Below, piece by piece: positions 16,250 through 28,177 of a stretch of DNA of 60,669 nt (its first letter is position 1; each line of letters starts with the position of its first letter). A program made the position numbers and the translations under genes. Under the pieces are notes generated by a model that was not told where the DNA came from, did not search any database, and worked only from the letters and a program-made list of their open reading frames with translations. Source of the DNA: an uncultured Pseudomonadales bacterium (lineage in GTDB: Bacteria; Pseudomonadota; Gammaproteobacteria; Pseudomonadales; UBA7434); NCBI GenBank assembly GCA_943788835.1, contig CALSRU010000007.1, forward strand, positions 1 to 60,669, read 5' to 3'.

Positions 16250-18481
16250 TTAAAAAGCGAGCCTCATTCCTACCGTTGCTGTTCTTGCTTTATTAGGGCG
16301 CGCACCGTACGGTTGTCGCCCCACGATATTCTCTTCGCTAGTTGCATTCTCTAAACGACAATATATTCCCAAATCATCATTAACCTGCCGACTTACAACT
16401 AAATCGAGTGTTGTGCTGCTTTCGGTTTTTTCGTAAGCATTGCATGAAGGCTTAGTGCACACTTCATCAACATAGCTCATCGCCGCATTCATCGCCCAGC
16501 GATTCATTTCGAGACCTAATGAAAGTGCGAGCTGATTTTCAGGAATATACGGAATGACGTCTCCCTTTGTCACGCTGCCAAAAAATTCAGTGTCACTAAA
16601 GGATGAGTCGAATTCAGAGTGGGTGTGGCTATAAACCAATGATAGCGGCATAGAAATATCGCGACCAATTTCATAAACATTACTCATAGTAAACTCGACG
16701 CCGCGAACCATCGCTTTACCGCCATTGGATGTATCCCCAGGGTCACAGTTACTGCCTGATGATGCCGTGCAAGTCCCCAATATATTTTCATAGTCGTTGT
16801 AAAAACCCACAAGTTCTGCCGATAAAGTGCCATTTTGGTAGCGCGCACCCACCTCATAATTGACCGACTCCTCTTCCTTCACGTCTGGCTCGTTTGAAGG
16901 TGTGCTGAAACCTTTATGTGCACCGCCTAAAATAGTCAGCTGGTCGTTGATATGATAAAGCGCGCCAAAACCGGGCAGTAAAACGGCTATATGATTTTTA
17001 CGCGAGTCACGAAAGCTTCTTTGAGCACCGTCGTTATAACGGGCTCGCTGTAGGTCGATATCTTCATAACGCAAACCTGGAGTAAGCACCCAATCGCCAA
17101 AAGTGATCGTGTCATGTACGTACAGTGAAGTCGCCTTCGCTTGCTGTACGCGATTACCCGCATCCCCCAATGCATTAGCCGATAAAAAAACTAGCGAACC
17201 ATTCTGCTGAGCATAGAAAAAATCTTGCTGTAAACGATCTTCTTCATCTTCGTGATGGCGGATACCCATCTCTAATTTATGTTGAACAGAATCCCCGCTT
17301 AAGTCCCAGTCGAGCTTCACCTGCACACCCCGTGAATAGTACTCACGATTATTGTCACGAAGTTGAATACTAGTATTGTCTGGCGTATCTCCCCCATCAA
17401 GGATGGCTTGTAAATCTGAAGAGGAAAGCCCTCCCAACGTGAGGCCTCGATTAATTCCTTGAACAATATCAAACCAACTGTCGAAGTCTGTTGTTACATC
17501 TGTATCAATATCAAACTTCTCAGTTTTGAACCAACTTCGCTTATGCGTATTCTCGTAAGCCGTTGCAGCAATGCGCGCTTTTTCACTAATAGAGAATTCA
17601 TAGCGCAAAATAAATTGGTTATGCTCAGTTGCAATGTTGTCTAAATCCGACAACCCATAACGTCGATAGGGGTCGTTAGAAAAATCTGAATCAGTTAATC
17701 CTAGGTAGCTTTGATTAGAGTTTTGCTGAGCGTATTGATATTTAAACTCAACCGCATGGCGTGAATCATCCGGCGCATAAGCCAGCTTCAACATGTAGTC
17801 TTCAACATCCAGTCCAGTATCGTTATTACTTCGATCAATTTTTTGGTATCCATCTGACTTCCATTGATGCGTCTCAAGCATAAAGCCAAAGCCTGACTCA
17901 TGAGTCGATCCATAAACGACATGGCTACGTGTTGTCGAGTCACTACCCACTTCCAAGTTAACTTTGCCTTCCGTTGCTTTTGGAATAGGCGTCGACACAA
18001 AATTTACCGCCCCCCCAACTGTGTTGGGGCCTTGAGTAATAGCAGAGGGGCCTTTAACGACTTCGACGTTGTACATACGACCCATTGTAGGAAAGTAATA
18101 GGCAGACGAGGCAGAGTACGGGGCTGGAGCTACTAAAACGTTGTCCTCCAACAATACCACGCGAGCACTTCGCTCGGTGGGTACACCGCGAATACCGATA
18201 TTTGGCCGCAAGCCGTAACCGTCTTCTACCTGAACAGACACACCAGGTACCGTTCGTAAAATACGTTGAATGTCGGCATATTCAAATATCTCTAAATCAT
18301 CATCACTCAAAAGATGAGCCGAACCAGTAACCGCCTCCAATCGCTCCTGATTACCCAAAATTGTCACTTCTTCAAAGAACCCAGCTTGCTCAGCATGGTC
18401 GGCATAAGAAAAAACAGCAAATGTCGCTAAAAAAGCGGTTAATGTCGCTAAAAATGATCTAATTGTCATAATGTCGGTCAT
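16250..18481 (-). CDS. TonB-dependent outer membrane receptor, FecA-like
   Basis: Outer-membrane transporter of 743 residues, driven by TonB. A signal peptide ends near AYA/DHAEQA. The plug domain has the TonB-box-like start EEVTILGNQERLEAVTGS, then DIQRILRTVPGVSVQ, GYGLRPNIGIRGV and VEVVKGPSAITQGPNTVGG. A beta-barrel follows, ending with a terminal phenylalanine (GMRLAF), as expected for insertion into the outer membrane. The plug resembles the ferric-dicitrate receptor group. It diverges from the amine oxidase-like genes across a spacer holding a candidate Fur site. There is no FecIR pair beside it. The ligand, an iron chelate or another metal complex, remains open. An ATG four codons in is an alternative start. 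Confidence 0.9.
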   Translation of the reverse strand: MTDIMTIRSFLATLTAFLATFAVFSYADHAEQAGFFEEVTILGNQERLEAVTGSAHLLSDDDLEIFEYADIQRILRTVPGVSVQVEDGYGLRPNIGIRGVPTERSARVVLLEDNVLVAPAPYSASSAYYFPTMGRMYNVEVVKGPSAITQGPNTVGGAVNFVSTPIPKATEGKVNLEVGSDSTTRSHVVYGSTHESGFGFMLETHQWKSDGYQKIDRSNNDTGLDVEDYMLKLAYAPDDSRHAVEFKYQYAQQNSNQSYLGLTDSDFSNDPYRRYGLSDLDNIATEHNQFILRYEFSISEKARIAATAYENTHKRSWFKTEKFDIDTDVTTDFDSWFDIVQGINRGLTLGGLSSSDLQAILDGGDTPDNTSIQLRDNNREYYSRGVQVKLDWDLSGDSVQHKLEMGIRHHEDEEDRLQQDFFYAQQNGSLVFLSANALGDAGNRVQQAKATSLYVHDTITFGDWVLTPGLRYEDIDLQRARYNDGAQRSFRDSRKNHIAVLLPGFGALYHINDQLTILGGAHKGFSTPSNEPDVKEEESVNYEVGARYQNGTLSAELVGFYNDYENILGTCTASSGSNCDPGDTSNGGKAMVRGVEFTMSNVYEIGRDISMPLSLVYSHTHSEFDSSFSDTEFFGSVTKGDVIPYIPENQLALSLGLEMNRWAMNAAMSYVDEVCTKPSCNAYEKTESSTTLDLVVSRQVNDDLGIYCRLENATSEENIVGRQPYGARPNKARTATVGMRLAF

Positions 18482-18905
18482 CCAATATATTTTAAGGGCA
18501 GCGTAAGCAAACGTAATTTGAACAATGTTGCGGGCATCAGCGTTAAATGCTCAGCCATAAGGTAAGCTTAAGGAAATCTTAATCTAAATGCAACTCATTA
18601 TCATTTGTATTTAGAGAATTTATAACAATCCACATATATCCAAGAACAGCAGCAACCCACATTGCTACTGGCCACTCGTACAAAAAACAATCATACTTAA
18701 ACGCTCAGACTCGAAAAAAATCGACATAGCCGCTAGACTCTTCATGCTAATTCGATGTGTCCAGTTGAACAATCCAGCGCTATTTGAGAGCCAACTAATC
18801 TTCCTCTCAATAGTGTTTAGATATTGCTTATAGGCCTTTGGCATGCGCATCGCGTCAACCCGCATTTGCTCAACCATCTTTAACCTTGTCGCGTTAAAAG
18901 CGAGC
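18482..18905. other. Divergent regulatory spacer, TonB receptor / CAO-like cluster
   Basis: 424 nt between the receptor and the exported-protein genes. Besides the Fur-like element I see no RNA gene. An 80-codon minus-strand open frame (18665-18907) lacks recognisable features and is not called. Confidence 0.45.
18584..18610. promoter_or_regulatory. Candidate Fur-binding site
   Basis: Read on the minus strand, AAATGATAATGAGTTGCATTT is an imperfect palindrome whose left half, TGATAATGA, matches the Fur half-site well. The right half is weaker. It lies about 105-125 nt upstream of the TonB receptor start, where iron regulation would be expected. A match to one half only leaves real doubt. Confidence 0.4.
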
Positions 18906-19757
18906 ATGCCACTGCGGCCTACCCGCTCTATTTTTTTGAGTTTGTGTTACCTAGGCAGTATCGCTGTATTAGGAGCCCCAGCCGGCCTAACCTGCGCCGC
19001 TGAAGCAAGCGTCAATGACAACACTAAACCCGTTGATTTTGCTGTTCAAAAAAATAATCCTCGAAAACACGACGCGCTGCGCCACAGCGAGCGTGATCGC
19101 ATTTTGCAAAGCATCAAAAAGAAACACCCCCATTTCAAACAGCAAGAGAGCCTTGCAAGCGACTTTACCGCTGAAGAGCCTATTCTTTTATTGCTTGAAA
19201 AACGCCCCAGCAATAAAAAGCAAAATAGCCCTCGCCTAGCCGATGCCTACTATTACGATTACAAAACCAATGAAACAATTCACTGTATTGTGAATCCAGA
19301 AACAGGCGTTATTATTGAAGAGCTCCGCACCGTGCAACTACAGCTGCCCTTAGTCGAAGAAGAAATTGAACGGGCGTTTACTATTTATTTACAGAGCTCA
19401 CACCGCAATGAATTAGCCGATGCCTACCGCGAAGCCACCGGGCAATCGTTAATTGATGTTAATAGCCTGCACTTTAAAGCCTTCATACTGCATGGCAGCG
19501 CCAACATGAAGCGACTCAATGCAGCCACAAAGCGCTGCGGTCGCTCGCGCTGCGCAAAACTATTGATTCACACTGAAGAAAATATTGCATTAAACATCAC
19601 ACCCATTATTGACTTGTCTACAGGTCAAGTTATTCAGGGCAATACTGAACGAAGCGAAGGCCGTCCAATACCAGCCGTCAATGCAGACTCACCTCAAGAA
19701 CCCGTGCACAGGCATGAACGAACTGGCGGGAGTGAACAACATGCGCTTCCGCATTAA
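18906..19757 (+). CDS. Exported protein resembling copper amine oxidase N2/N3 domains
   Basis: 283 residues from the ATG at 18906. That start puts a good signal peptide (basic PLRPTRS, then IFLSLCYLGSIAVLG) at the N-terminus; an ATG 21 codons upstream would bury it. The middle reads LADAYYYDYKTNETIHCIVN, then PETGVII. This recalls the strand pattern of CAO domain N2 (R-A-x-x-Y-D...VDLTTGKV). It is followed by QLPLVEEEIERAFTIY, like the start of N3. A Cys-containing block (RCGRSRCAKLL) and a second strand set (IIDLSTGQVI) follow. It overlaps the next gene by 17 nt. With a CAO catalytic core encoded separately downstream, I infer a split oxidase. The similarity is weak and needs a profile search; without it this is an unknown periplasmic protein. 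Confidence 0.5.
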   Translation: MPLRPTRSIFLSLCYLGSIAVLGAPAGLTCAAEASVNDNTKPVDFAVQKNNPRKHDALRHSERDRILQSIKKKHPHFKQQESLASDFTAEEPILLLLEKRPSNKKQNSPRLADAYYYDYKTNETIHCIVNPETGVIIEELRTVQLQLPLVEEEIERAFTIYLQSSHRNELADAYREATGQSLIDVNSLHFKAFILHGSANMKRLNAATKRCGRSRCAKLLIHTEENIALNITPIIDLSTGQVIQGNTERSEGRPIPAVNADSPQEPVHRHERTGGSEQHALPH

Positions 19758-21084
19758 GGGATTAGTGCATCGAGTAATGCCAGCCGCTGCGCCGCAAGCA
19801 TTCGCACTCATAATAAGCGTTTTATGGTTTTCTACATCAGTCTCTAGCGCGCATGCTGCATCGTGCACAGGCGAGGCACTTGTGAATGTCACATTGCCTA
19901 GCGGTGCGCAGTGGGAACTGTGCTGGGAGTTGCGTGACGAAGAAGGTGTGGTCATCAAAGAAGCCGCCTACAAGACCCCGCAAGGATCTTTTCGCAACGT
20001 CTTAAAAGAGGCGTCCTTAGCGCAAATCAATGTAGCGTACGACGATGGCACACCGAGCCAGCGCCACGTCACTGACATTGCCAATGGTGGCGGACTTGGC
20101 CTCAACATCCATTCACTCTCCCCTCTCGACTGTATTGATGGCAGCTTACATGCTAGTGCGGGCAACACTGTGCTTTGTGTAAAAACCAAGCCTCGCGGCT
20201 ATGCCTACAAGTCTTATGCTCTGCTTGAACAGGGCCATATGCTGGTGCTGGAGAGTCGCGCAACGGTGGGACTTAGCAGCTACATCATCCATTGGCGCTT
20301 GTATGACGATGGCAGCATTGAACCCAGCGTAGGGCTAACTGGCCTGCTGCCAAAAATTGGCTCAGATCCCAGCTATGGCTGGCCGTTAGATCAAAACAAT
20401 CGCGTTGGTGTAGCATTTAACACCAGCTACTTTTGGCGTTTAGACTTTGATTTAGCTGCCGATGGCAGCAACGAAAGCATCGAAGAGTTTGAAGTTATTT
20501 CATCGGCAGATCGTCGTACAAAAAGCTTGAGCGTAACCACCTTAAGCAGTGAAACGAGTCGCTCAGTAGCTCCGGATGTAAAACGATCGTGGCGCATAAG
20601 AGATGTTAGTACAGGCGTGACGAATGCTGACGGTCGCTCAATATCCTATCATTTATCACCGATGCATACGGCGCATCGTTATACAGGCGCTGCAACCGAA
20701 AGCTGGGCTCAGGATGACATTTATTTCACACGCTTCAATACCTGCGAGCGCTTCGTTGTAGATAACCCTACCAACGAAGGCTGCGCGGATAACGTATCTG
20801 GCTTCATCAACGGCGAGAGCATCGACGATGAGGATGTAGTACTTTGGTACAAAGTTAATTATCACCATCTGCCACGCAGCGAAGATGAACCGGCTGTACA
20901 AATACATTGGGATGGTTTTATTATCGCTCCCAGAGACTGGACTGCCACCAACCCTCTAGCCGCATTAAGCCAGCCTGATTTAAATTATTCGATCACAAGC
21001 AACAACGATTCATCAGGCAACACCGATTCGTCAAACAACAAGTGCGTTAATGCCCGGCTGCCTTTCTGCCCGGAGCTTGGCTAA
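19741..21084 (+). CDS. Degenerate copper amine oxidase core, exported
   Basis: 447 residues from the ATG at 19741, chosen for its GGGAG site and because it exposes a signal peptide ending SSAHA. The fold markers of CAO domain D4 are present in order: [31 protein letters not shown], a DIYFTRF strand, VVLWY and [11 protein letters not shown]. The catalytic residues are mostly gone. The TPQ-precursor tyrosine position is serine (S179 in TVGLSSY), and the copper HxH is F226-N-T228. Only the third histidine (H376) and a base-like D112 remain. It therefore cannot be a standard amine oxidase. It is a paralogue of the next gene, sharing the GAQWxxCWE start, and is translationally coupled to it (TAATG overlap). 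It may be a structural or binding subunit. Confidence 0.75.
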
Positions 21085-24000
21085 TGCTGCGGCCTATCAC
21101 TGATCGTTTTTTCAAACCCCGAGCTATTAATAAATACCGATTAATGGTCGCCATCTGCTTTTTTTGGTGTTTGGAGTTTTCAGCGAGTACTCATGCACAA
21201 GCGACGCTCAATTGCTCGGCAAGCTACCAAATCAGTCATACATTTGCTAACGGCGCGCAATGGGATATGTGCTGGGAGAGACAGAATCGTGAAGGCATTA
21301 TTTATTCTGACATTTACTATACGGCGCCTGGTGGATCAGCACGTCAAATTTTAAATAGTGTCGCCATCGCACAGATCCACGTACCCTACGATGATGATGG
21401 CGCCCGCTATCATGACGTCAGTGACTACGGCTTAGGGACAGCTCAATACTTAAATGACTTGCAAGAGGCCGATTGTCCAGATGGCACTCGCGTGCAGGAA
21501 AATGGCAAGAATGTCATTTGTCGTTCTGTCTATACCGATGAAACTAGCTCACTTACCAACAACGCTACGACACCCAGCGAAATTTTAAGCGTATTCAGCG
21601 TCTCTCATGTCGGTGCGTACAATTACATTCCCGAATACCGCTTTCACGACACAGGCGTTATAGAGCCTGTAATGGGTGCAACCGGCACGCTACAGCGCTA
21701 TGGCAGCAATACCGCTGAGGGTTGGACCGTCCGCACCGGTAGCAACCCCGTCGGCATCTCTCATTTACATAATTATTATTGGCGCCTCGATTTCGACCTT
21801 GGCACTAGTGGCACCGATGATGTCTTTGAAGAAATTGAATTCGTTGCCGAAAGTGGCAGCAACACCAGCTTTGAGAAATCCGTCACCGACTTCACTACCG
21901 AAGTGGCACGATCTATCAATGCCGATACACGCCGCTTTTGGCGCGTGCGAGATAACACAGACAACAACGCTGATGGTCTACCAGTTTCCTACGATATTCT
22001 ACCGCTGGATACGGGCCACCGCGATATAGGCCCAGCCGATGAACCATGGACAGAAAATGATATTTATGTGACACAACATCGTGCTTGTGAACGATTTGCT
22101 TCGCGCAACCCATCGGACCCCGGTGGCTGCCTGGCTAACGAACATGTCAGTGATTTTGTCAACGGCGAGTCACTTGCGAATGAAGACCTTGTCGTTTGGT
22201 TTGGTCTTACATTTCATCATATACCGCGCGACGAAGATGAACCACGCATGCATGCACATTGGAATCATTTCAGACTGATCCCACGAGACTGGACGGCAGA
22301 GTCAGTCAACAGCCAAGTTAATTTTCCGCCCACTATTATTGAGATTGGCGATCAAAGCAATTTGCTCGGTGAGACCGTCAACTTACAAATTATTGCTGCT
22401 GACCCTAGCAATCAAATACTCACTTATACACAAAGTGGCTTGCCTGCGGGGCTTTCCCTCGATGCAAACTCTGGCTTGATTAGTGGGGCCGTAACGGCTG
22501 CAGAAGGTACTTATCCAGTAAGCATAACCGTAACAGACTCTGGCAATGCCAGTAATACAATTGAATTAAGTTGGTCGGTAGATACCGATGCCGATAATGA
22601 TGGGATTCCAAACGGGTTAGACAATTGCCCATCCATACCTAACATAAATCAGCTCGACACCGATGAGGACGGCTATGGTAATGCCTGTGATGAAACCCCT
22701 CTCGGCGCATGCGCAAGTTTTGCCAGTGCTGACGTACCTCAAGCAATTTCAGCATCGGGCACACCCACGATACTATCAAGCCTGCCCGTTACACTTAATG
22801 GGTCATTGAGCAGCGTAGCCATTATTAACCTGGCAGGTTCTCACACTTACATGAGTGACTTGACTTTCACCCTGACAAATCCCTCTAACACGAGCGTAAC
22901 CATTATTGAATCATCATGTGGTAGCAATGATAATTTTGATCTTGCACTGGATGATAGTGCAAATTCTAGCTACCCGTGCCCGCCTATAGGTGGAGGAACT
23001 TATTTACCCAGTAATTCTCTTGCGCCGTTTCTTGGGCAAGCAGCAGGCGGCGATTGGACACTTAGCATAGCCGATACTTTTAATGATGATGGCGGCTCTC
23101 TCGACAGCTGGGGCTTGCAAATTTGTACCGGCGCCACATCAAGCAGCAGTGATCAGTTTTGGTTAGAAGGTTTCGAAGGCGTAAACAACTGGACCCAGGA
23201 CCCACTTGGAACAGATAGCGCGACTAGCGGGCAATGGAGCGCAGGCAATCCCATGCAAACGCAAATTTCGCAAGGAATTATGCAACCTGAAAACTCATCA
23301 GAAGGCACACAAGCACTAATTACTAACCCTGCCGGCGGTTCGGTAGGTGCAAATGATATTGATGGTGGCGCGGTCACTGCAAAATCTCCTCTCATCTCGC
23401 TGCCATCAGCGACCAATATCGCATTGAGTTTTGATTTCTTCTTCGCACATGATGCAAATGCCACTAGTGCTGATTACTTTCGTCTGAAGCTAGTCGATAC
23501 ATTTAACACCACGCTTTTAGTTATCGCAGAAGAACTGGGTACTGGCGACGTGCGTGAAGGCCAATGGACAACAGTAAACAGCATAAACTTAAATGCCTAC
23601 CAAGGCCAAGATGTAGCGCTGATAGTAGAAGCTGCAGATGACGGCACGAGCAACATTGTTGAAGCTGGCCTCGACAACATTAAAATACTCACCACGCAGC
23701 TTGATGCCGACTCCGACGGCATTGTTGATTCGTTAGATAAATGCCCCAATATTGCAAATCCCAACCAGATTAATACCGACAATGACAGCTTCGGCGATGC
23801 CTGCGATGCATTCCCTAATGACCCAGACAATGACGTCGACGGGGACACAATCAGCGGACATATCGACAACTGCCCTGCTGTGGCAAACGGGCCCAACGAT
23901 GGCAGCAATCAACTCGACAACGATGGTGATAACATCGGCGATGCGTGCGACATTGATGCCGATGGTGATGGCATCGACGGCAACGGCAGTGGCGGCCCGG

Positions 24001-25415
24001 GAACCGATATTAATGACCTCGATAATACGATAGCAACGGATGCCGATAGTGATGGTGTTGATGATGCAGGTGGCGGAACGCTCAATGGCCCCGACAACTG
24101 CCTCGGTATAGCTAACGCTGACCAAGTTAATACGGATGGCGATGGACTCGGCAATGCGTGTGATCTATTCCCGAATGATCCAGACAATGACCTTGATGGT
24201 GACACCATTAGTGGGCACATCGACAACTGCTTTGCTGTGGCAAATGGACCCAACGATGCCAGCAACCAACTCAACTTCGACAACGATGCCTTTGGCGATG
24301 CTTGCGATAGCGACGCCGATGGCGATGGCTTTGACGGCGACGGTGCCGGTGGGCCGAGCGCCAATGACGTCGATGATCTCAATGCCGGTCTAGCGGTTGA
24401 TCCCGATGGAGATTTAGTCGATAGCAGCAATGTGCTTGCCGTAACTCAAGATAACTGCCCCGCCGAAGCTAACGCCGATCAAACTAATACCGATGGCGAT
24501 GCTCAGGGCGATGCCTGCGATTTATTCCCCAACGATCCAGACAATGACCTTGATGGCGACACCATTAGTGGGCACATCGACAACTGCCCTGCTGTGGCGA
24601 ACGGGCCTAACGATGCCAGCAATCAACTCAACCTCGACAACGATGCCTTTGGCGATGCTTGCGATAGCGACGCCGATGGCGATGGCTTTGACGGCGACGG
24701 TGCCGGTGGGCCGAGCGCCAATGACGTCGATGATCTCAATGCCGGTCTAGCGGTTGATCCCGATGGAGATTTAGTCGATAGCAGCAATGTGCTTGCCGTA
24801 ACTCAAGATAACTGCCCCGCCGAAGCTAACGCCGATCAAACTAATACCGATGGCGATGCTCAGGGCGATGCCTGCGATTTATTCCCCAACGATCCAGACA
24901 ATGACCTTGATGGCGACACGATTAGCGGACATATCGACAACTGCCCTGTTGTGGCGAACGGGCCTAACGATGCCAGCAATCAATTAGACGATGATAATGA
25001 CAATGTGGGTAACGTCTGTGATACGTTCCCTAATGACCCCGACAATGACATTGATGGCGACACCGTTAGCGGTGAGATCGACAACTGCCCGACAGAACCC
25101 AATACCGATCAACTCAACACCGATGGTGATAGTGAAGGCAACGCCTGCGATGCCGATGATGACAATGACAATTTAACCGATATTGAAGAACAGCAATATG
25201 GAACCGATCCGTTATTGATTGATACTGACGGCGACGGCATTAACGACGCCGAAGAAATTGCTGTGGGTCGCAACCCCAACCAATTCGACGCCTTTATTCC
25301 ATTACCGATTTGGGCATTTGGGCTTTTAAGCTTAATAATGTTTGGTATTTATAGTTATCGTTCTAAACATATCAAAAATAAATACCGCCTACGTTCCGAT
25401 AAGCAAAGACTGTAA
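21084..25415 (+). CDS. Copper amine oxidase core fused to TSP3-repeat adhesin-like tail
   Basis: 1443-residue exported protein. Signal peptide 1-40. CAO-like core about 41-403: base-like D111 (HDVSDYGLG), candidate TPQ tyrosine Y179 in VGAYNY, copper ligands H227/H229 ([14 protein letters not shown]) and H379 ([11 protein letters not shown]). The usual N-Y-[DE]-Y is A-Y-N-Y here. An Ig-like He_PIG domain follows (about 414-500), then a TSP3 calcium repeat and a proprotein-convertase P-like domain (about 543-680). A jelly-roll-like domain, many TSP3 repeats (about 870-1400) and a C-terminal hydrophobic anchor, [17 protein letters not shown] plus basic residues, complete it. By family it would oxidise primary amines to aldehydes at the cell surface; the substrate is unknown. 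Its start overlaps the stop of the degenerate paralogue. It lacks the N2/N3 domains, which the first gene of the run may supply. Confidence 0.75.
23808..24993 (+). repeat. 357-bp in-frame tandem repeats in TSP3 region
   Basis: Period 357 bp (119 codons): 23808, 24165, 24522 and a partial fourth from 24879. Copies two and three are almost identical at DNA level; copy one is divergent in its second half. Each encodes Asp-rich calcium-binding repeats ([16 protein letters not shown]). The near-identity points to recent duplication or gene conversion and makes length variation between strains likely. It is also a risk spot for assembly collapse. Confidence 0.9.
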
Positions 25416-25529
25416 TCTACGTCCAATATTTCGTGTAATAGACTTATGCCTTCAACATTAATAATTGGTTTACTCAATGAACCGTCTGCGCCAATATCTA
25501 GGGCCATACACCAACTAAGTCATAGATTC

Positions 25530-26837
25530 ATGCAAAGCTGCTTTAACATATTCTGTATCTCTTTATTTTTTATCTGTCATGCTGCGAGCGCAACCAACAC
25601 CGAAGTCAGTTGGTCATCAAAAGAATTAAGCATGCTCAAACGCTTGTACATCAGCAAGCCGCTAGCCGCTCCCGCAAGCCCAAGTAATCGTGTAGCCGAC
25701 AATCCTCAAGCTGCTCAGTTAGGAGAAAAACTTTTCTTCGATACTCGCTTAAGCCTCAACAATGACTTTTCCTGCGCAACGTGTCATCGACCTGAGTATG
25801 CCTTTACCGACAGACGATCGCGAGCCGCCGGCATGGGAAGCGCGATGCGCAACACGCCTACACTTGTGGGTAGCGCAAATTACAAATGGCATTACTGGGA
25901 CGGCCGCAGCGATTCGCTATGGGCTCAGGCGTTAATTCCGCTAGAGTCAGCCGATGAAATGGGTGGCAGTCGCGTGGCTATATTGCGAACCATCATGGAT
26001 GACCCAGAATACGCGGAACACTATCAACAATTATTTGGCGACCTGCCTGCCACAACCACGCTTGCTAAGCTACCTCAACATGCAGGCCCACTCGGCGACC
26101 TAACTACACGAACGGCTTGGTACCAACTATCTGAAAAAACCAGGCATCAAATTAATATTTTCTACGCCAACATTGGCAAAGTTTTCGCCGCTTATGAGCG
26201 CACCTTACAACTACAGCCCACACGATTTGATCGTTATGCTGCCGAGCTATTAAAAGCTGCAACAGCTTCGAGAACGCGTCCCGTTGTATTTAGCTCTCAT
26301 GTAATGACCGAGTCAGAAATACACGGCGTAAAGCTTTATTTAAATGACAAGAAAACCAATTGCCGCAATTGTCATAATGGCCGCTCATTTAGCAACAGTA
26401 AGTTTTACGATATCAACACCGCTAAGCTGGACGGCAAGAGCGTGGACTATGGTCGCGCTTTAGGACTCGACGCAGCGCGCCATGATCCATTTAACTGCCT
26501 TGGCAAATACAGCGACCTGCCCGACCACAAAAAAGAAAAAGTCTGTCGCTTATCAAAGTTAAGCGATGAAAAAGATAACACACTCATGGTCGGCGCCTTC
26601 AAAACGCCATCTCTTCGCGGACTTGTGCATACCGCACCGTATTTTCACAACGGGCGTTTAGAAACGCTTGAAGGAGTACTTCAGTACTATTCTGAAGAGG
26701 CACACCGACTAGAAAAAACCGGCATTCATAATAAAAAAATCATCCAAGCCAAACAAGAACATGCTGTAGAGCCTTTGCAATTAACCCGCCTAGAAAACCG
26801 AGCATTGCTTGCCTTTTTACTTGCCTTATCAAACTAA
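25530..26837 (+). CDS. Di-heme cytochrome c peroxidase/MauG-like protein
   Basis: 435 residues from the ATG at 25530, chosen because it opens a signal peptide (SCFNIFCISLFFICHAASA). An in-frame ATG at 25446 would add 28 residues. Two c-heme sites are visible: CATCH (C82, C85, H86) and CRNCH (C278, C281, H282). The tryptophan block HYWDGRSDSLW sits between them, and TAPYFHNGRLETLEGVLQYY is near the end. The family includes peroxidases and MauG, which builds the tryptophan-derived TTQ cofactor. The axial residue that separates these classes cannot be assigned by eye. Its position 114 nt after a CAO-like gene suggests a shared redox task, possibly cofactor maturation or use of the peroxide that amine oxidases release. 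Both are inferences. Confidence 0.88.
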   Translation: MQSCFNIFCISLFFICHAASATNTEVSWSSKELSMLKRLYISKPLAAPASPSNRVADNPQAAQLGEKLFFDTRLSLNNDFSCATCHRPEYAFTDRRSRAAGMGSAMRNTPTLVGSANYKWHYWDGRSDSLWAQALIPLESADEMGGSRVAILRTIMDDPEYAEHYQQLFGDLPATTTLAKLPQHAGPLGDLTTRTAWYQLSEKTRHQINIFYANIGKVFAAYERTLQLQPTRFDRYAAELLKAATASRTRPVVFSSHVMTESEIHGVKLYLNDKKTNCRNCHNGRSFSNSKFYDINTAKLDGKSVDYGRALGLDAARHDPFNCLGKYSDLPDHKKEKVCRLSKLSDEKDNTLMVGAFKTPSLRGLVHTAPYFHNGRLETLEGVLQYYSEEAHRLEKTGIHNKKIIQAKQEHAVEPLQLTRLENRALLAFLLALSN

Positions 26838-26920: not shown

Positions 26921-28177
26921 CTAAGGTAAAACAAGATTTACCGGATCAGAAAAATGGCTAACACTGCCATTGACATCCACAGTCGCAATGGAGAAATAAT
27001 AGTTTCCAGACGCCAGTGCCTCTACTTCATAGCTAGTCACCAATCCCCCAAGACCATCTTGGGCAGCAATACTACTATTTGTGCCAGTATCAATTTGATC
27101 GGCCAAGTAATAGTAAATTTCGTATCCGTCTATTTCACTCACGGCCAAGTAGGTACCATCTTCACGGGTCGTTGGAGTCACCCAGTCAAGTAAGACATTC
27201 GCAACTAAAGGTACTGGAGGCGCCTCAACCACTATCGCAAGCTCAGCAATGGCACTCAAACCCAAGCCATCAAAGCATTCAGCCACAAGACTAAAACTCC
27301 CCTCGACCAAGCCGGCAAGTGACTGATCCATGTTCGAATTCCACTGGTAGGGAGCGTACGACTCGCGTCTAATTAAATTTCCATTTTTATAAAGATTGCA
27401 GAATTCGATAAATCCGTCGGCATCACTGGCATTAATCTCCACTTCAAGTCCATCTCCAGCTTGAACAACAGCATTAAGGGCCGGCATAAGAAAATTAACA
27501 ACTGGAGCCATGTTCACAGGCGGCTCCTCTGGCGGCGGCGGCGCCGGCGGAGTTGCATCCGTAATCATCACTGATAAAGTTGCGATACTTGTGTTGCGTG
27601 CCTCATCACTGGCCTCACACTCCACCATCGTCGTACCCACAGGAAAGCTGCTACCGCTGGACGGTAAGCAAAGCAGAGTAACGTTGCTATCAACCTGATC
27701 GTAAGCCTGCACACTATAGTTCACAGCAACAGGTGACCCATCAAATGAGTCCTGCTCAATCAGTACAGGTAAGTTTATTATTGGAGCAGCATCATCGATC
27801 ACACTAATTAAGAAAGAATTTGAAGTGATATTTTGGCTAGCATCTTCTGCCCAGCAATTGACTTGCGTTTGGCCCAAAGAAAAAACACCGCCAGATAGAT
27901 AATCACACTGAGTAGTAACCGCACCATCAATTGCATCACGGCTGTTCGCCGTATAAAACACAACGGCTCCTGCGGCTGTCGTCGCGCTAGCAACTATATC
28001 GCTAGGCAAAGTCATAACCGGCCCTGCTGTATCCACCTCTTCTACCCTGACTGGCTTCGTCTTCTTTTTTGATCGAGGATTACTGTCCTCCGACGAACTG
28101 GCCCATCGACCCCCTTTTTCTGCATAGCTACTGAAAGGAATTAAACACATTATTAAAAGGAAAAAAATCGCGCGCAT
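26921..28177 (-). CDS. Secreted protein with HYR, Ig-like and FN3-like domains
   Basis: 418 residues with a signal peptide (AIFFLLIMCLIPFSSYA). After a basic linker come two HYR-type beta domains (about 47-130 and 131-208), recognisable by GVFSLGQTQVNCWAEDAS and FPVGTTMVECEASDEA. A proline-rich linker (PPAPPPPEEPP) is followed by an Ig/cadherin-like domain with FCNLYKNG, and an FN3-like domain with GYEIYYYLADQI ends the protein. There are no catalytic residues and no membrane anchor. Such architecture fits surface binding or scaffolding. It converges on the di-heme gene with an 83-nt gap, so a link to that cluster is by location only. Confidence 0.8.
   Translation of the reverse strand: MRAIFFLLIMCLIPFSSYAEKGGRWASSSEDSNPRSKKKTKPVRVEEVDTAGPVMTLPSDIVASATTAAGAVVFYTANSRDAIDGAVTTQCDYLSGGVFSLGQTQVNCWAEDASQNITSNSFLISVIDDAAPIINLPVLIEQDSFDGSPVAVNYSVQAYDQVDSNVTLLCLPSSGSSFPVGTTMVECEASDEARNTSIATLSVMITDATPPAPPPPEEPPVNMAPVVNFLMPALNAVVQAGDGLEVEINASDADGFIEFCNLYKNGNLIRRESYAPYQWNSNMDQSLAGLVEGSFSLVAECFDGLGLSAIAELAIVVEAPPVPLVANVLLDWVTPTTREDGTYLAVSEIDGYEIYYYLADQIDTGTNSSIAAQDGLGGLVTSYEVEALASGNYYFSIATVDVNGSVSHFSDPVNLVLP

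Follow-up and report, generated by a model that had tools for sequence, protein, structure and literature searches.

The window, a 60,669-nucleotide stretch (positions 1 to 60,669 of contig CALSRU010000007.1) from an uncultured Pseudomonadales bacterium (UBA7434; assembly GCA_943788835.1), carries four consecutive forward-strand genes that together resemble a copper amine oxidase (CAO) divided over separate proteins (Table 1). Gene 1 (N23) encodes a candidate counterpart of the CAO N2 and N3 domains, genes 2 and 3 (COREd and COREa) encode a "dead" and an active-looking "live" CAO core, and gene 4 encodes a putative di-heme protein. The first-pass annotation, made from the sequence alone, had described these four genes and both of their overlapping junctions, and each of these features was found in place, with a further gap of 30 nt between genes 3 and 4. 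For gene 1, the mechanically called open reading frame begins at position 18843; the ATG given in Table 1 was chosen for its cleaner signal peptide. Genes 2 and 3 hold the only matches to the CAO catalytic family in this genome.

Table 1 Features of the split CAO locus and of associated genes (positions in the window unless another locus is named).
Feature	Position	Strand	Description
Gene 1 (N23)	18906..19757	+	283 aa; signal peptide then CAO N2 + N3 domains (by modelled fold); predicted exported
Gene 1/gene 2 overlap	19741..19757	+	17 nt; the ATG of gene 2 opens the overlap
Gene 2 (COREd)	19741..21084	+	CAO core without catalytic residues; predicted exported
Gene 2/gene 3 junction	21082..21086	+	TAATG stop/start overlap
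Gene 3 (COREa)	21084..25415	+	CAO core (~21195-22322) plus surface tail; predicted exported
Gene 4	25446..26837	+	MauG/MbnH-type di-heme protein
TonB-dependent receptor	16250..18481	-	Divergent from the N23 gene
YtkA-type lipoprotein	L024, 15779-16207		Equivalents in 17 loci

Gene 1 was recognized mainly by its predicted fold. No Pfam family, including CAO N2 (PF02727) and N3 (PF02728), matched it over the cut-off, and its single direct library match was weak (NCBIfam PRK11504, primary-amine oxidase, profile positions 57-210, E = 0.0018). Among 55 relatives of gene 1 compared to Pfam, one matched N2 (E = 0.0034) and another DUF4136 (E = 0.008), and a Thiothrix homologue gave a match to the NCBIfam model for primary-amine oxidase (positions 11-125, E = 1.1e-7). 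A family profile (A3, 55 rows) searched against the PDB matched CAO N-terminal domains (best E = 0.0034, with the first unrelated chain at E = 0.03), and hhalign paired the family with single-chain CAO N-termini at a probability of 96%, in the N2 part only. The AlphaFold2 model of gene 1 (predicted local distance difference test, pLDDT, 82.7) comprises two helix-plus-four-strand units, and CAOs were 50 of the 50 matches listed by Foldseek against the PDB (best E = 7.8e-8) as well as 50 of the 50 entries listed by VIA-align at Z 8.2-10.5, in one example with residues 22-219 placed on residues 9-193 of the CAO AGAO. Judged by this modelled fold, gene 1 is a CAO N2/N3 protein in both of its domains, and the profile and hhalign comparisons agree; the N2/N3 likeness proposed in the first-pass annotation was thus recovered by structure and not by a Pfam profile.

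Genes 2 and 3 both matched Pfam Cu_amine_oxid (PF01179; E = 1.3e-33 for gene 2 and 1.1e-39 for the whole gene 3 protein), and the score of gene 3 (137 bits for a cut-off of 27) places it within the family. Core residue positions were fixed by alignment to E. coli amine oxidase, position D383 of which we take to be the catalytic base. In gene 2, this Asp is replaced by His109 (20065), the Tyr that gives rise to topaquinone (TPQ) by Ser179 (20275), and two copper-binding His by Phe226 (20416) and Thr228 (20422), with only the third, His376 (20866), retained; gene 2 therefore lacks the catalytic residues of the family and is predicted to be a catalytically dead CAO core. Gene 3 retains all six residues tested, i.e., Tyr102 (equivalent to Tyr369), the base Asp111 (21414), the TPQ-type Tyr179 (21618), and His227, His229, and His379. 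It does not retain the N-Y-D/E motif around the quinone Tyr, in which Ala178 replaces the Asn. The contrast between one dead and one active-looking core, the latter with a surface tail, had been anticipated and holds residue by residue.

The arrangement recurs widely. Relatives were drawn from a genome collection and confirmed by searching with the live core, a choice under which loci holding only a dead core would be under-sampled; the best 80 of 231 (L019-L098) and the window make up 81 loci, with frames sorted by profile and with L019 alone counted for L017 and L019, which are the same locus. A separate N23 gene is present in 71 of these 81 loci, across three phyla. The two-gene form N23-COREa is found in 29 Actinomycetota, 5 Chloroflexota, and 1 Pseudomonadota (gammaproteobacterial) loci. 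The window and 34 Pseudomonadota loci have N23-COREd-COREa, some of them also with YtkA and MauG genes. Eight further loci consist of a live core adjoined by neither N23 nor COREd, and all eight of these orphan cores sit in assemblies that, by accession prefix, also hold a full locus. Among the remaining loci, one has COREd-COREa at a contig start, L046 is cut by a contig end, and L027 (Chloroflexota) has a broken COREd. In the latter, a Caldilineaceae metagenome contig, COREd extends over two frames (955-2227), through either sequencing error or decay. An open COREd frame is present in 36 loci from several gammaproteobacterial groups; the broken copy of L027 apart, it stands directly upstream of COREa in 36 of 36. 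Two Thiothrix genomes (L121 and L122) have the order COREd-COREa-N23-COREd-COREa, in which dead and live cores move together as pairs and N23 may be common to both pairs. Because the gene order recurs in dozens of loci and three phyla, the set is not a chance association, and because related gene sets occur in several bacterial groups, the split is a conserved arrangement, not a broken gene. It is also independent of the dead paralogue, as shown by the two-gene versions lacking a dead core in two other phyla. These results bear out the earlier proposal of a CAO divided over several genes with a dead paralogue beside a live one; in the survey of co-occurrence that it called for, conservation held for the gene run itself and not for the MauG-like gene, which is found in only part of the family.

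Across the family, every one of the 83 live cores retains all six residues tested in gene 3, while the 38 dead-core rows, which include two pieces of the single L027 gene, keep the base Asp in 1 and the TPQ Tyr in 6 (live and dead classes were defined by the HxH pair, so that HxH counts are circular). The Asn preceding the TPQ Tyr occurs in 0 of 83 live cores vs. 9 of 9 single-chain reference CAOs, its place being taken by Ala (44), Trp (29), Glu (5), Ser (3), or Gln (2). Of 36 dead cores, 15 combine an Arg in the TPQ position with an Asp in that of a copper-binding His, perhaps as a buried salt bridge. A maximum-likelihood tree (73 rows) separated the split family from single-chain CAOs with support of 100/100 and grouped all dead cores into one clade (100/99). 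Its rows were thinned at 72% identity and exclude L103 (probably a wrong frame, given a branch of 5.6 in a first tree), the near-duplicate L108, L119 (which contains a stop), and the L027 COREd pieces.

In 30 genomes hand-picked among those behind the 80 loci, N23 was present alongside split cores in 30 of 30, and a clear single-chain CAO was also present in three (frames of 663-734 aa). Over the same 30 genomes, the gene-1 profile also matched a single-chain CAO in its N2 part (G686, E = 1.5e-6, in the same frame as a Pfam match); we do not use this match as support because weaker ones lie in frames that Pfam did not recognize as CAOs (G666, 3.7e-5; G665, 8.5e-5; G670, 7.4e-4). An even draw of 398 Pseudomonadota genomes included 22 over the Pfam cut-off, with the split form only in the genome of the window and CAO frames of 668-817 aa in the other 21. 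Within the genus of the window, gene 2 was found in its own genome, in G087, and, at a contig edge, in G012, and in none of the 9 other genomes searched, several of which are incomplete; the split CAO module is thus accessory in this genus. A plasmid search returned 57 records, all below 60% identity, and the 15 listed carried a primary-amine oxidase feature (8), a tyramine oxidase feature (1), or neither (6).

The live cores are also distinguished by their tails. That of gene 3 comprises Ig-like, thrombospondin-3, and P domains followed by a C-terminal hydrophobic segment from 25296, and the live-core tails tested carry thrombospondin-3, Ig-like, or cadherin-like repeats. By simple hydropathy (L027 left out), a hydrophobic N-terminus is predicted for 69 of 82 live cores and 30 of 36 dead ones, and a hydrophobic C-terminus for 23 of 82 and 0 of 36, respectively. 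Since C-terminal hydrophobicity is confined to live cores, the live core would sometimes be the anchored partner. Two Cocleimonas loci (L024 and L026) have one dead core followed by two consecutive live cores, the first of which, in L024, bears an Ig/cadherin-like tail of ~1,050 residues. Separately, a rhomboid gene cluster lies upstream of three orphan live cores (L037, L045, and L053), which end in Gly-Gly, hydrophobic, Arg tails. Two of the three rhomboid genes tested matched rhombosortase TIGR03902 (1.5e-9 and 5.8e-6), both below the cut-off, and these three live cores are possibly sorted surface CAOs.

Gene 4 matches Pfam CCP_MauG (E = 4.5e-39) and has two c-type heme motifs (CxxCH at 25773 and 26361) together with Tyr415 (26688), which aligns with position 294 of MauG, in agreement with its first description as a di-heme MauG-like protein. 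Tyr294 is a heme ligand in MauG, and an equivalent Tyr is kept in 16 of 16 complete gene-4 copies; by this ligand, gene 4 would group with MauG, MbnH, and BthA rather than with Met-ligated peroxidases. It scores below the curated NCBIfam cut-offs for MauG/MbnH (TIGR04039, 137.3 vs. 362.85 bits; TIGR03791, 116.7 vs. 443.85 bits). A MauG-like gene follows the cores in 17 loci (the window, 15 further COREd-COREa loci, and the contig-end-cut L046), and is absent from 9 COREd-COREa loci whose downstream sequence reaches 2 kb; none was seen in the available flanks of two-gene loci from Actinobacteria and Chloroflexota. The di-heme gene is thus a partial companion of the split CAO family.

In 17 Thiotrichales-type loci, the live core is followed by a gene for a YtkA-type lipoprotein (by profile matches, with the Pfam match tested on one), which precedes the MauG gene where the latter is seen; it does not occur in the window. 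The TonB-dependent receptor of the window also adjoins N23 in the two same-genus genomes G087 (L017/L019) and G012 (L018), and none was found in the available flanks of the remaining loci, which marks it as a companion at the level of the genus, perhaps for a ligand or a metal. Across the flanks of the two-gene loci (10 kb at most), no MauG, YtkA, or TonB homologue was seen, nor was any conserved gene beside the N23/core pair seen across both Actinobacteria and Herpetosiphon, many of whose high-GC neighbour clusters resemble antisense frames. On the other side of the window locus, a HYR/Big_7 domain protein (26921-28177, reverse strand) is convergent with gene 4.

A possible pairing of the two cores was explored by structure prediction. 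In the Thiothrix locus L031, the three genes share a reading frame and are separated by a single stop codon at each junction, and we therefore modelled them as a read-through N23-COREd-COREa chain. The AlphaFold model (pLDDT 82.4) has a predicted template modelling score (pTM) of 0.72, vs. the ~0.6 which, by our own reasoning on pTM, would be expected if only N23 and one core were placed; the two cores thus seem mutually packed, although AlphaFold may draw here on known CAO homodimers. In this model, COREd has retained the fold of a CAO core (Z 30.5-35.4 across 336-361 residues among the matches listed), and the VIA-align matches cover essentially COREd alone (residues 222-597; 1 of the 50 rows listed reaches 710). 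The alignments listed by Foldseek span 647-700 columns at a root-mean-square deviation of 31-32 Å. We take the fused model as moderate support for core pairing and as none for the place of N23; as a guide to which core carries N23, it gave no answer.

Beyond the domain identities, residue states, gene order, conservation, and phylogeny described above, we consider it fairly probable that the locus encodes an exported, surface-held CAO of separate subunits, in which a dead and a live core form a heterodimer with an N2/N3 subunit and a di-heme companion. Gene 3 would be the catalytic core, its three His binding copper and its Tyr179 self-converting to TPQ, which would oxidise a primary amine with O2 to an aldehyde, NH3, and H2O2. 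Gene 2 would stand in for the partner subunit found in ordinary CAO homodimers, leaving one active site per heterodimer, and gene 1 would supply N2/N3 as a non-covalent subunit. The H2O2 would reach the di-heme enzyme, and gene 4 may use or remove it, or oxidise a residue of a partner protein. For the heterodimer, which we favour, we infer the pairing from the adjacency of the two cores, the doubled pairs in two genomes, and the fused-chain model, none of which is proof. A more specific version, namely a three-subunit quinoenzyme with an obligate dead/live heterodimer, one TPQ site that absence of the conserved Asn has re-tuned, a shareable N2/N3 cap, and an H2O2-driven MauG-type partner, is tentative.

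Several observations weigh against the split heterodimeric oxidase: eight live cores have neither N23 nor COREd beside them, the Actinobacteria and most Chloroflexota loci have no COREd, N23 does not occupy the canonical CAO place relative to COREd in the fused model, and the chemistry may differ because the Asn before the quinone Tyr is replaced in all live cores. In the available text of PMC9491219, the corresponding N381A mutant of AGAO is 160-fold slower and has a flipped TPQ. The absence of COREd beside the orphan live cores and in the 35 loci with N23 and one core would fit COREa being an ordinary homodimer completed by N23, with COREd outside the enzyme but helping it, whether by promoting assembly, as an inhibitor, or as a chaperone for the copper site. 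We regard this as unlikely, since COREd keeps the CAO core fold, invariably lies directly upstream of the live core, and in two genomes occurs in duplicate along with that core, as would be expected of a stoichiometric partner.

The universal loss of the Asn would also fit recruitment of the CAO fold for copper or redox chemistry other than amine oxidation, in which COREa would be a copper/quinone protein that handles copper and the MauG-like enzyme would oxidise a residue of COREa or COREd, much as MbnH oxidises a residue of MbnP. The invariant Tyr294-equivalent of the MauG-type enzyme, the YtkA-type lipoproteins, and the TonB receptor adjoining the window locus point in the same direction. 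However, the base Asp and the Tyr369-equivalent, both needed for amine oxidation, are kept in every live core, and none of these companions was seen in the flanks of the two-gene loci (10 kb at most), which makes such a recruitment rather improbable. Ordinary CAOs, moreover, form TPQ without a helper, according to the available part of PMC4497604. Finally, the dead residues of gene 2 and the broken frame of L027 could be read as a decaying duplicate near loss, with the split a chance gene fission; this is very improbable, being already contradicted by conservation, i.e., by a COREd that is open in 36 loci and forms a single clade and by a separate N23 in three phyla.

Compared to known systems, the split heterodimeric oxidase favoured here is closest to CAOs defined by PF01179 with PF02727/PF02728, such as E. 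coli amine oxidase and AGAO, with which it shares the core fold, copper-binding His, TPQ Tyr, base Asp, and Tyr369-equivalent of gene 3 and the N2/N3 fold predicted for gene 1. It differs in having N2/N3 in a gene of its own, and hence not in one chain with gene 3, in its dead core paralogue, in the tail and replaced Asn of its live cores, and in its position in the tree. As described in the excerpts available of PMC4497604, CAOs are single-chain homodimers, and engineered AGAO heterodimers of active and inactive subunits work, one working subunit being enough. The WT/Y382F heterodimer reported there likewise combines a TPQ-competent and a TPQ-less core but is man-made from single-chain N2/N3 subunits, whereas the dead subunit proposed here would be natural and conserved. 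Gene 4 resembles MauG, MbnH, and BthA in its CCP_MauG domain, heme motifs, and aligned Tyr, and differs from MauG and MbnH in falling under the curated cut-offs and in having CAO-like cores as neighbours. Among titles and the beginnings of abstracts in the open-access literature (subscription journals and preprints lay outside this scope), we found no earlier description of a split CAO or of a CAO adjoining MauG.

If the split heterodimeric oxidase is real, its conservation would make it possible to probe the roles of the N domains and of the second subunit, and gene 1, a protein unnamed by Pfam, gains a testable role. The Ala, Trp, Glu, Gln, and Ser found at the Asn position would likewise form a natural library bearing on what the conformational change of TPQ does, a debated matter, as far as that debate is set out in the available portion of PMC9491219.

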